Shown: piece by piece, positions 2,746-60,914 of the stretch
Numbering within the stretch: position 1 is the stretch's first letter
Layout: each line of letters starts with the position of its first letter
Translations under genes and position numbers: made by a program
Source: Chromatium okenii
GTDB taxonomy: Bacteria > Pseudomonadota > Gammaproteobacteria > Chromatiales > Chromatiaceae
DNA length: 64,000 nucleotides
Assembly: GCF_002958735.1 (NCBI RefSeq)
Contig: NZ_PPGH01000037.1
Coordinates: 884,001 to 948,000 of the forward strand
Reading direction: 5' to 3'
The notes under the pieces: generated by a model
Database searches by the model: none
What the model saw: the letters and a program-made list of their open reading frames with translations, nothing else
Told to the model about the DNA's origin: nothing

Positions 2746-5700
2746 TCAGGTTTCAAGCAACTTTACGCGAAACCATAGTGAATATAACGCAGGCAGAAAT
2801 AGCAAGGTAATTGCGGTTCCTACAATAATTCCGCCAATTAACACATACGCCAATGGTCCCCAAAAAGTATCAGTTGCTAATGGCATAAACGCGAATACCG
2901 CAGCCGCTGCGGTTAAAATAACTGGACGTGCGCGGGCGACTGTTGCTTCCACCACTGCGGCGGAGATTTCCATTCCTTGACGCCGATTTTCAATAATTTG
3001 CTGCGTTAAAATCAGCGTATTGCGCATTAAAATTCCCGCCAATCCAATCAAGCCGAGCAGCGCCACAAAGCCAAACGGTTGATGACCAATGAGCAGCGCC
3101 AGCACTGCGCCAATCACGCCCAGCGGCGCTGTGGCGACGACCATCACCGTGCCAGCAAAACTGCGCATTTGCAGCATGATGAGCGTCAACATCAGCGCCA
3201 GCATGATCGGTTGCACCCGCTGAATCGACACATCGGCCTTGCCCGATTGCTCCACTGCGCCGCCGATGTCGATCCGATACCCGGGCGGCAATTGCGCCCG
3301 CAAGGTTTCCAGTTGCGCCCAAATTGCGGCGGTCACATCCGGCGGTTGCGCGTGTTGCACCTCGGCATTGACGCCGATGAACGGCTCACGGTTGTAGCGT
3401 TTCAACACAGGGTCTTCAAACGCGACGGTCAGTAATCCTGCCTGCGCCAGCGTCAAGGTGCGTCCATCCGGCGTTTTCACTGTTAAATCAGCGAGATTGC
3501 CCGCACGATCTGCCTGCCCGGGCAGTCCGCGCACCACCAATTGCACGGCGCGAATATCCTCACGAATTTCGGTGGCGACCACGCCCGACAACTGATGTTG
3601 CAACTGCGCCGCCAATTCTCGCGGCGTCAAGCCGATCAAACGCAATCGCTCTGGATCAAGCGCCAGCCGCGCTACTGCGACACGCTCGCTCCATTCCAGA
3701 TGCGCATCCAGCGTATTGGGATGTGCGGCAACTTGCTGGCGCACCTGCTCGGCAATATCGCGCAGCTTGACGGGATCAGTGCCGATCACACGAAAACTCA
3801 CCGGCCAAATCACCGGCGGGCCATACAGCAACTTTTGCACTCGGACTCGCGCTTCGGGAAATTCACCAGCGTCAATGTGCGTTTGCAGCCGTGCCATCAG
3901 CGCATCTCGCGCCGCTGGGTTGTCGGCAACGGCGATCAATTTGGCAAAAGCGGGATTGGGCAATTCAGGATTGAGCGCGAGGAAAAAGCGCGGTGCACCT
4001 GCGCCGATGTAGGTTGACAACGAACGCACTCCGGGCGCGTGTTGCAAAATCGCTTCGACACGATCCGCGACCGTGGTCGTCAGGCGAATGCTGCTGCCTT
4101 CCGGCAGATAGATGTCAACGAGCACTTCTGGGCGGTCGGAGCTGGGAAAAAACTGTTTTTCCACTGGGCCGGCGAGTCCGGTAATTGCCAGCGCCAGCAC
4201 GCCAAAAGTCGCTGCGACGACCAGCACTTTGTGCCGCACACAGCCGCGAATCAGTTGGCGCAGGCGGCGATACATGGGCGTGTCGTATAAATCGCCCCAG
4301 CCCGGTTTTGATAAATCCCCCCCACCCCCCTTTTTCAAAGGGGGGCTTTCTGATTCTCCCCCCTTTGGAAAAGGGGGGCGGGGGGAATTTGATGCGGACG
4401 CAGCAGCAGCGTTCCCAAATACGGCGTAAATGTCACCGCCACCACCCACGAAATCAGCAGCGCAAATGCCAACACCCAAAAGATGTTGCCGGCATATTCG
4501 CCGACGCCAGACTGCGCAAAGCCAATCGGCACAAAACCCACCACCGTAATCAGCGTTCCGCTCAACATCGGCGCTGCCGTCACCGTCCACGCATGAGCAG
4601 CAGCGCGGAGCCGATCCCAGCCTTCTTCCATTTTGACCAGCATCATTTCAATCGCAATGATCGCGTCATCGACCAGCAGGCCCAGCGCGATAATCAACGC
4701 GCCGAGTGACACGCGATCCAAATTGACGCCGCGAATCAGCATCAGCAAAAAGGTCAGCCCCAACGTCAGTGGAATCGCAATGCCGACGACCAGCCCAGCT
4801 CGCCAACCCAGCGCGAGAAAACTCACCAGCATCACCACGCCGACTGCAACCATGAATTTGATTTGAAACAGATTCACGGCGTGGACAATCGCGTCGGCTT
4901 GATTGGTCAACTGCACCAATTCAAATCCCAGCGGCAAATCGGTTTCCAGCTGGCTGATGAATGCGGTCAAGCGTTGGCCGAGATTCAAGCCGTTTTCGCC
5001 GAGCCGCATCACCACGCCGAGCAGCACTGCATCCTGACCGCCGGAACGCACGATGTAGCCGGGCGGGTCTTCATAACCGCGTTTCACTTCGGCGATTTCC
5101 CCAAGTAAAACAAGCTGCTCGCCAACGCGCAGCGGCACTCGTTTGATCGCTTCGACATCGGTCAACGTGTTATCCGGGCGCAAATACAGCCGAGGCGCAG
5201 CAGTCTCAATCACGCCCGCTGGCAGCAACCGATTTTGGGCATCCAACGCATCGCGCACTGCTTCCGGCGTGATGCCGAGCGTCGCCAGCCGCGCTGGATC
5301 AAGTTCCACAAAAAACCGCTGCGGACGTTCGCCCAGCACCCGCACTTTTTGCACTCCTTCCACTCGCGCCAGCCGATCACGAATCTGCTCGGCCTCGCGC
5401 ACCAGCAAACGCGGCGGCAATTTCGGCGCAGACAGCGCATACAGCGCGAAATACACATCAGAAAATTCATCATTCACAAAAGGGCCGCGCACTCCGCTGG
5501 GCAAATTGCCCGCCTCGTCGCTCATGCGTTTACGCACCTGATAAAACAAATCCGGCACTCGCGCTGCTGGCGTGTAATCCTGAAATTCCACCAATAAATC
5601 AACGCGCCCGGGTCGCGCCGTCGTTTCCACGCGGTAAAAATAATCGACTTCAGAAATGCGTTTTTCCAACGGCTCGGCGACCAATTCCTGCATCTGCGCC

Positions 5701-21560: not shown

Positions 21561-21751
21561 ATGTTAAAACTCAGTGATATTTTAATTGCTAATCAGAACT
21601 TGAGTCTTTTGAGGAACTTTTTCCGCTGATTCAGGACGTGGCGCGATCTGGCGAGCGGTTTTTCCGCATGGACGTCAAACCGCCTTATCCAGACACGCCG
21701 GACAACTGGGAAGATCAATTGGAGGCAGCCTTCAGTGGACGCATTCGCTAA
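21561..21751 (+). CDS. Small protein of unknown function, one apparent frameshift
   Basis: From ATG 21561 a reading frame gives MLKLSDILIANQNL and then, after a one-base slip near 21600, continues ESFEELFPLIQDVARSGERF and ends with DNWEDQLEAAFSGRIR before TAA at 21749-21751. The acidic and aromatic composition and the open continuation favour a real gene of about 64 residues, but I do not recognise the family. It is divergent from mlaA and precedes another unknown gene in the same direction. Confidence 0.45.
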
Positions 21752-21770: not shown

Positions 21771-22485
21771 ATGAATCAATTTGAACAGTTGGCAACCCGT
21801 TTTGTCGATCAAGCTGCTAATTCAGTGGGTAATTCTGGATTAGCGACTGCGGCACTTGAAGCACATTTGCAGACGTTGACTGAGCAGATGGCGCATCTCA
21901 AACGAATCGCTGCGCCAGCAGAGCGCCGTGCTGATTTGCAATTACAAATTGCGCGACGTTGGTTAATTTGGAGCGCGGCGCAGAAGCCTGGCCACTCGGT
22001 CGCGCTGCGTTTGATACTTTTATCGACGGCGATCAATTCGAGTTGGCGGCGGATGTGTGTGATGTGCTGTTTCAGGCAGAACAACCGCAGTCGCTGGCAG
22101 CACTCGGTCAGGGCATTTGGCTGGCAGTAACCTGTCCGATTGACCCAGAATTGACGATTGAATTGCTCAGTCACGTGATCGACGATACGCCCGACGATGC
22201 GGATGGAGCGGCGTCGCGGCAACTACTGCGCTGTTTATTGCGGATGTGCGAGCGCAGGGACGGCAGCGCGAGGATTTGATGTTTTTTGCGACGCAGTTGC
22301 TGGGCAATGTCGCTCGCCGTCACAGCGGAGTTGACAGTCAAGCGCAACTCGATGCGTGGATGGAGCGGTTGGAATTAAAAGAACCGGAGAAGTTTTTAAT
22401 CCGCCTGCGCAACGTCGTTGATGTATTGGTGCAGGATGACTGGTGGTTTGAGCGGGAGGCGCTGCAAGAGCGGCTACCTTTCTAA
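21771..22485 (+). pseudogene. Protein of unknown function, two frameshifts
   Basis: Three overlapping frames together give one protein of about 238 residues: MNQFEQLATRFVDQAANSV to IARR, then RGAEAWPLGRAAFDTFIDGD through DDTPDDADGAA, and finally RQREDLMFFATQLLGNVARR to ALQERLPF. The breaks near 21960 and 22230 are each repaired by adding one base. It is helical, acidic and without membrane segments; I do not recognise the family. It lies between a small unknown gene and the Cmx6-like gene, all reading the same way toward the DsrC-family gene, which suggests one transcription unit. Confidence 0.55.
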
Positions 22486-22517: not shown

Positions 22518-23198
22518 ATGTTTTGGCACGAAGATAAAAATCCCGACGAGGTGCAGATTCCTGATGACATCGTTGATCTGCTATTTACCATTGATTGCAA
22601 AAGCATTCCGTCGATCACGCGCATCTGTTATCAACCGCATTGCAAGCTGCGCTGCCGTGGTTAGCGACGGAATCGCAGATCGGTCTGCATACGATTCACG
22701 TTGCTGGCTCGCAAAACGGCTGGCAGCGTCCGGCGCATGGCGCGAAACCGAGCTGCTGCTGTCGCGCCGCACCAAGCTGATTATTCGCGCTCCCAAATGG
22801 CGGGTTGCCGATTTGTTGCAGCAATTGCCCGGCGTGACGCTTGATCTCGCTGGTCATGCGTTGACGATTGGCGCAGGCAAAATCAGGCTGTTAACCAAAG
22901 ATGCGACGTTGTTTTCTCGTTATGTCGTGACGCAACACGGCGGATAACGCTGATGAGCAGGAATTTCTCGCTACTGCTGCGCAGTTTGGCAGCGATGGGA
23001 ATTCACATTCGCAAGGCGCTGTGCGGTAAAGCGACCGCATTGGCAACGCCAAGGTTTATTGCACACGCGCAGTTTGTGCTGGCGGCGCTCACGGCTGAGG
23101 AATCAATTCAACTGCAACAGCATGGTCTCGGCACATCGGCTGCTGGGCTGCGGCATTTTCATCCGCACAAGGGCATCGACTCCGTGAAAAATGGCTGA
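22518..23198 (+). pseudogene. Cas6/Cmx6-like RAMP protein (type I-MYXAN class), several frameshifts
   Basis: Pieces in different frames assemble to a protein resembling the MYXAN-type Cas6/Cmx6 family of CRISPR RNA endonucleases. They are MFWHEDKNPDEVQIPDDIVD, DHAHLLSTALQAALPWLATE with GLHTIHVAGS, ETELLLSRRTKLIIRAP, DLAGHALTIGAGKIR, LTAEESIQLQQHGLG, and HRLLGCGIFI with PHKGIDSVK. The glycine-rich GCGIFIP segment near the end is the RAMP hallmark. Breaks lie near 22605, 22735, 22950 and twice near 23140. No CRISPR array or other cas gene is seen in the window. The next gene in the same direction is the DsrC-family gene. Family call is from recall of the pattern and should be tested by profile search. 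Confidence 0.6.
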
Positions 23199-23220
23199 CC
23201 ACACTGCGATAAAACCATAG

Positions 23221-23238
23221 AATTAACGCGCTTTAATT
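23221..23238. promoter_or_regulatory. Inverted repeat upstream of the DsrC-family gene
   Basis: AATTAA and TTAATT flank a six-base GC-rich spacer (CGCGCT), 49 bases before the start codon. A GCCC-AACC-GGGC hairpin follows at 23241-23252. Either could be an operator or part of a promoter region; no regulator is known to me for this pattern. Confidence 0.25.
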
Positions 23239-23286
23239 CCGCCCAACCGGGCTGTAACGGATAATAACGACGAGGAAATAAAACAG

Positions 23287-23625
23287 ATGGCTATTGAAGT
23301 GAACGGTAAAACCATTGCTACTACTGCGGCTGGGTATTTGGAAAACTACGCCGATTGGGATGAAGATGTCGCGCAGGCATTGGCAGCAATTGAGAGCATC
23401 GAACTGACTGAAAAACATTGGGATGTCATCAAGTATCTGCGCAGCGAATACATTGATAATGGTCAGAATCAGCCAATGGAACGGGCAGTGCTTAAAGACA
23501 TGGGCAAGCTGTGGGGCACGAAACCAACCAGCAAAGATTTGTATACGCTATTCCCGCTGGCACCGACCAAACAGGGCACGAAAATCGCCGGTTTACCTGC
23601 CGTGATGCGCAAAGGCGGTTATTAA
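23287..23625 (+). CDS. DsrC/TusE-family protein lacking both conserved cysteines (RspA type)
   Basis: A 112-residue protein with the DsrC/TusE fold signature: MAIEVNGKTIATTAAGYLENYADWDEDVAQALA, HWDVIKYLRSEY and LPAVMRKGGY at the end. DsrC carries sulfur on two cysteines near and at the C-terminus, and TusE keeps the penultimate-arm one; here the arm reads TKQGTKIAGLPAVMRKGGY with no cysteine at all. Such members have been named RspA and are thought to be regulatory rather than sulfur carriers. A GAGGAA ribosome-binding site is present and a strong terminator follows. It occurs mainly in sulfur-metabolising bacteria, which guides the organism guess. Confidence 0.88.
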   Translation: MAIEVNGKTIATTAAGYLENYADWDEDVAQALAAIESIELTEKHWDVIKYLRSEYIDNGQNQPMERAVLKDMGKLWGTKPTSKDLYTLFPLAPTKQGTKIAGLPAVMRKGGY

Positions 23626-60858: not shown

Positions 60859-60914
60859 CTGCCAACTGCCAACTGCCAACTGCCAACTGCCAACTGCCAA
60901 CTGCCAACTGCCAA
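60859..60914. repeat. Tandem heptamer array, eight CTGCCAA units
   Basis: Eight perfect copies of CTGCCAA in a row, then CTGGTGG. It lies between the CheB-CheR and PAS-GGDEF genes and matches the core of the degenerate arrays at 57615-57690. Short tandem heptamer arrays of this type are known from cyanobacteria and some proteobacteria. Confidence 0.9.

Follow-up and report, generated by a model that had tools for sequence, protein, structure and literature searches.

A Cas6 relative encoded with a cysteine-less DsrC paralogue accompanies reverse dsr in sulfur-oxidising Gammaproteobacteria, without a tie to CRISPR immunity

Introduction

Two described systems stand closest to the locus reported here. 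The first is the Cas6 of type I-MYXAN/I-B CRISPR systems (Cmx6), whose part in type I crRNA maturation would place cas genes or an array near the gene or make it dependent on those elsewhere in the genome. The second is the reverse dissimilatory sulfite reductase operon of Allochromatium vinosum (dsrABEFHCMKLJOPNRS), together with the DsrC family. DsrC is recognised by its C-terminal cysteines, including the penultimate residue, and the same family holds TusE and the cysteine-less DsrC paralogues, which are called RspA.

Here we report that a Cas6 relative is a near-universal companion of dsr in sulfur-oxidising Gammaproteobacteria, without a tie to CRISPR immunity. Among the open papers searched, none was found to link Cas6 to dsr, although studies of DsrC paralogues published behind subscription may refer to this gene neighbourhood; the dsr papers searched do not name a divergent cas6 module, and those on dsr evolution contain no CRISPR term.

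Results

The locus lies in the window, by which we mean the whole 64-kb stretch of Chromatium okenii DNA that was analysed, and comprises four genes on the forward strand. geneA (21561..21751), located by tblastn with an intact relative from genome G005 (80% identity), encodes a small conserved protein of about 63 aa in a broken frame. geneB (21771..22485), also broken in frame, encodes an all-helical TPR-like repeat protein of about 240-250 aa, which may start at the GTG at 21735 and which tblastn aligned with Chromatium weissei in three pieces of 75-99% identity. These are followed by cas6 (22518..23198), an indel-broken frame recognised by profile and tblastn matches, and by dsrC2 (23287..23625), a DsrC-family gene.

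The frame of cas6 changes near 22610, 22745, 22945-22990 and 23130-23160, close to the breaks listed in the earlier note on this DNA. The same assembly (88.7% complete, 13.6% contaminated) carries a second copy of the locus on another contig, C7, which is 98-99% identical and free of several of the window's indels, and the cas6 gene of Chromatium weissei DSM 5161 is intact. For these reasons the breaks are best read as sequencing or assembly-type errors rather than decay. A pseudogene is disfavoured, given that the two copies do not have the same frame breaks.

The earlier note had assigned the gene to the Cas6/Cmx6 family, and the profile search against Cas6 families that it proposed gave significant matches. 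Three separate pieces within 22564-23195 match PF09559 (E 5e-7, 3.5e-14 and 4e-9), above the curated cut-off of 26.7 bits; the pieces also match TIGR02807 (cas6_cmx6), below its curated cut-off because each piece is partial. Intact relatives reach 223 bits with PF09559 and 118-130 bits with TIGR02807, for which the cut-off is 98.85. The AlphaFold2 model (pLDDT 87.6) shows the double ferredoxin-like RAMP fold of Cas6, and among solved structures it is best matched by 8fcj_B, a Cas6 from a type I-B CRISPR-associated transposon (Z 24.9, with 199 residues superposed at 2.1 A), with further matches to 5yi6 (Z 16.4) and to Cas6 of P. furiosus (Z 14-16).

Of 70 dsr-type proteins, 69 have a histidine at the start of helix 1 (H34 in the reference numbering), as do all eight CRISPR-linked homologues, and from its position this residue is the candidate catalytic histidine of Cas6; asparagine takes its place in the dsr-type protein of locus L106 and in the transposon protein 8fcj_B. 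The dsr-type proteins also share with Cmx6 the glycine-rich C-terminal segment, G-x-G...GCG-x-F, which is as strictly conserved in them as in the CRISPR-linked forms. However, a tree separates them, with support 100/98, from CRISPR-linked Cmx6, which was sampled from cyanobacterial plasmids and from two Gammaproteobacteria that hold both kinds. In those two genomes (G050 and G064) the CRISPR-linked PF09559 gene, with arrays and cas1, is additional to the dsr-linked copy, and the two are about 32% identical.

The surroundings of the gene were surveyed by comparing, with tblastn, the regions around PF09559 matches from more than 70 genomes. The earlier note had asked whether the four-gene order recurs, and it does: the usual arrangement on a single strand is geneA (about 63 aa), geneB (about 240-250 aa), cas6 and dsrC2, which in most relatives runs divergently from the reverse dissimilatory sulfite reductase operon, headed by dsrA. 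The survey took in 80 named loci (from Chromatium, Thiocystis, Thiocapsa, Allochromatium, Marichromatium, Thiosymbion, a Solemya gill symbiont and many metagenome bins) together with three others, and 51 of these loci have all four genes in this order beside dsrA. The gap between dsrA and geneA has a median of 658 bases and often holds a TauD-like gene. A shorter version, in which cas6 and then a DsrC-family gene run divergently from dsrA, occurs in three genomes (G544, G571 and G595), and the module lies away from dsr in the window's genome, in Chromatium weissei and in G002. Thus, the relatives adjoin dsr rather than CRISPR loci, and rather than the cas3, cas8, cas7 and cas5 neighbours of type I-MYXAN/I-B Cas6; no relative was found on viral contigs.

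Two variants of the dsrA neighbourhood were seen in passing. At L111-L113 the place of geneA and geneB between dsrA and cas6 is taken by a short reading frame of about 70 aa that is similar in all three. Elsewhere in the phylum, four dsr loci of other classes (L221, L223, L224 and L225) have geneA and a TauD-like gene divergent from dsrA, without geneB, cas6, dsrC2 or the palindrome discussed below.

The sulfur link that the earlier note had suggested is borne out by co-occurrence as well as by position. Among 274 evenly drawn Gammaproteobacteria, 91 had PF09559 and 92 had dsrA: 86 genomes hold both, five PF09559 alone, six dsrA alone and 177 neither (phi 0.91). Against Cas1, in contrast, the same 274 genomes gave 22 with both, 69 with PF09559 alone, 38 with Cas1 alone and 145 with neither (phi 0.04). 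Since Fisher p-values ignore kinship, a set of 44 genomes, each from another family, is the better guide, and in it the same 12 hold both PF09559 and dsrA. PF09559 was absent from about 48 dsrA-bearing genomes of other classes in the phylum, and the association is therefore a trait of Gammaproteobacteria and not a requirement of Dsr itself. No CRISPR array was found in the window, as had been noted earlier, or in the four relatives examined, and no Cas1 was found in the window's assembly at its stated completeness.

geneA, 58-66 aa long in most relatives, and geneB gave no significant match to Pfam or NCBIfam. The predicted structure of geneB (pLDDT 87.9) has 11 helices, and its best solved matches are TPR domains with a Z of 14.1, although the fold is so common that a Z of about 14 is a guide only. 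dsrC2 belongs to the DsrC family (PF04358, E 1e-32; TIGR03342, E 7e-28) and, unlike DsrC, has neither redox cysteine and ends in RKGGY, in agreement with its first description as a cysteine-less relative. RKGGY closes 58/58 of the linked copies and likewise 8/8 of those that the assembly does not place with cas6, and 55 of the 58 linked copies are entirely free of cysteine. Given that dsrC2 lacks the C-terminal cysteines of DsrC, including the penultimate one, and has an invariant RKGGY end, it cannot carry sulfur as DsrC does; it may instead be regulatory.

DsrC paralogues near dsr, or expressed with it, have been reported before. In Thiodictyon the paralogue THSYN_22565 is close to dsr (PMC5944118). 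When A. vinosum was on pyrite, the paralogue Alvin_1508 went down 7- to 8-fold with dsrA and dsrB, and three other paralogues went up (PMC11267869). In the genus Allochromatium dsrC2 is located away from cas6, and Alvin_1508 may accordingly be the dsrC2 of A. vinosum.

Discussion

On balance, we lean towards reading the window's four genes as a displaced copy of a reverse Dsr accessory operon, geneA-geneB-cas6-dsrC2, whose Cas6 has a non-CRISPR role on cellular RNA, by processing or binding, in the service of Dsr sulfur oxidation. Directly in evidence are the Cas6 family and fold, the conserved histidine at the candidate catalytic position, the shared gene order, and a distribution that follows dsrA and is independent of Cas1.

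We propose the following model. A Cas6-type relative of type I-B/MYXAN Cmx6 would have been recruited from CRISPR, or have diverged from it, and would now be inherited with dsr. Like Cas6, it would bind and probably cleave cellular RNA at a hairpin, with dsr mRNA or a small RNA as the possible target. The TPR-like product of geneB would serve as a scaffold, while the DsrC paralogue without cysteines would be a sensor or a competitor, coupling Cas6 activity to the state of DsrC/DsrAB. The module and dsr would probably be regulated together, by way of one operator in the region that separates the two operons. In its most specific form, the model makes the protein an endoribonuclease exapted from CRISPR, a sulfur-responsive RNA-processing factor of reverse Dsr that is controlled by the cysteine-less DsrC paralogue and conserved throughout dsr-bearing Gammaproteobacteria, including purple sulfur bacteria and sulfur-oxidising symbionts; this we put forward tentatively, and hold to be somewhat less probable than the general role.

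The strongest competitor is that the Cas6 fold has been repurposed without catalysis, as an RNA-binding or purely protein-binding accessory that acts, for example, in the assembly or regulation of DsrAB/DsrC, its conserved residues being structural or partner-binding. With a median pI of 6.2 and a net charge of -3, the dsr-type proteins are acidic, whereas their CRISPR-linked homologues are basic (pI 9.3-10.7), which argues against strong RNA binding and calls for caution over the metal-independent endoribonuclease activity expected of a Cas6. A dsr-type motif, N67-G68-W69-x-R71, is nearly invariant, and its W and R are missing from the CRISPR-type proteins. Furthermore, a TPR-like protein and a DsrC paralogue, its operon partners, both have folds typical of protein binding. 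However, H34 and the C-terminal glycine-rich segment are kept as strictly as in the CRISPR-linked forms, and we regard loss of catalysis as unlikely, though a serious contender.

Considerably less probable, in our estimate, is that Cas6 acts on a palindrome upstream of dsrA, CTATCCC-N4-GGGATAG, as an RNA hairpin in the dsr leader. The palindrome is present in 83 of 110 regions upstream of dsrA (1 of 1100 shuffles), and an exact genome-wide scan of 63 genomes placed 19 of its 22 sites at dsrA. Its loop of 4 nt and stem of 6-7 bp resemble Cas6 hairpins, it remains with dsrA where the module sits elsewhere, and no copy turned up at four Cas6-less dsr loci from other classes. Nevertheless, it is present in some other Cas6-less dsr loci (L231 and L232), and substitutions that would leave a G-U pair on one strand but a mismatch on the other are about as frequent in either direction (10 and 10 at pair 6-13), as expected for a two-fold DNA operator. 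Given these half-site-symmetric changes, and given that the palindrome sits upstream of a conserved promoter-like TANATTAG block, a DNA operator is likelier than a Cas6 hairpin. We therefore regard the palindrome as the likely shared operator of the divergent dsr and cas6 operons. As DsrC of A. vinosum has been reported to bind DNA upstream of dsr (PMC5944118), a protein of the DsrC family would be a natural candidate for its binder. The element stands upstream of dsrA in most dsr-bearing Gammaproteobacteria; at L037-L110 its distance from the gene is about 100-200 bases, a genome usually has a single copy, and a run of G lies about 22 bases from it. No copy at 12/14 or better was found at the unlinked dsrC2 genes.

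If the dsr-type Cas6 does act on RNA, as we favour, its substrate was not found among the dsrC-dsrM hairpin, the cas6-dsrC2 spacer and the Rfam families. A strong hairpin of variable sequence lies in the dsrC-dsrM spacer, just 3' of dsrC, in most dsr operons (for example at L106, L066 and L105). Its median z in PF09559 genomes is -2.6, and it is also present in several Cas6-less dsr loci, on which ground we rejected it as the substrate; it may be a stabiliser of dsrC mRNA or an attenuator of dsrM. A search for hairpins in the cas6-dsrC2 spacer gave no common element, and in seven loci the Rfam families yielded tRNA only.

An orphan CRISPR Cas6 that processes pre-crRNA from arrays elsewhere in the genome, as the family name and the arrays and cas1 of G050 and G064 might suggest, is scarcely credible, since the CRISPR-linked copies in those genomes are second, divergent genes on the opposite side of the tree, no array lies near the gene in the window or in four relatives, and PF09559 follows dsrA without correlation with Cas1. 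The separate CRISPR-linked copies and the missing correlation with Cas1 are the grounds on which we rejected a CRISPR role in trans.

The near-universal pairing of this Cas6 with dsr, apart from CRISPR immunity, suggests that the oxidation of stored sulfur includes a control or processing step not yet described. Under the CRISPR label given to them in public annotation, these genes are hard to recognise as a conserved companion of a major biological pathway of sulfur oxidation. If the protein is an active RNase, it represents a Cas6 lineage that works outside immunity and raises the question of how dsr expression is tuned. As Allochromatium is a cultured genus with the module beside dsr, the question is directly testable.

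Two minor observations concern other sequences. The window holds a tandem repeat of the heptamer CTGCCAA at 60859-60914, and a similar short heptamer array lies at 6298-6367 of L037. On plasmid pGMOR1 of Gloeobacter morelensis (L245), a Cmx6-type Cas6 at 3974-4765, near which neither cas3 nor any other cas gene is annotated, lies in an operon with unknown genes and a PAPS-reductase-family gene and is possibly another non-CRISPR Cas6.
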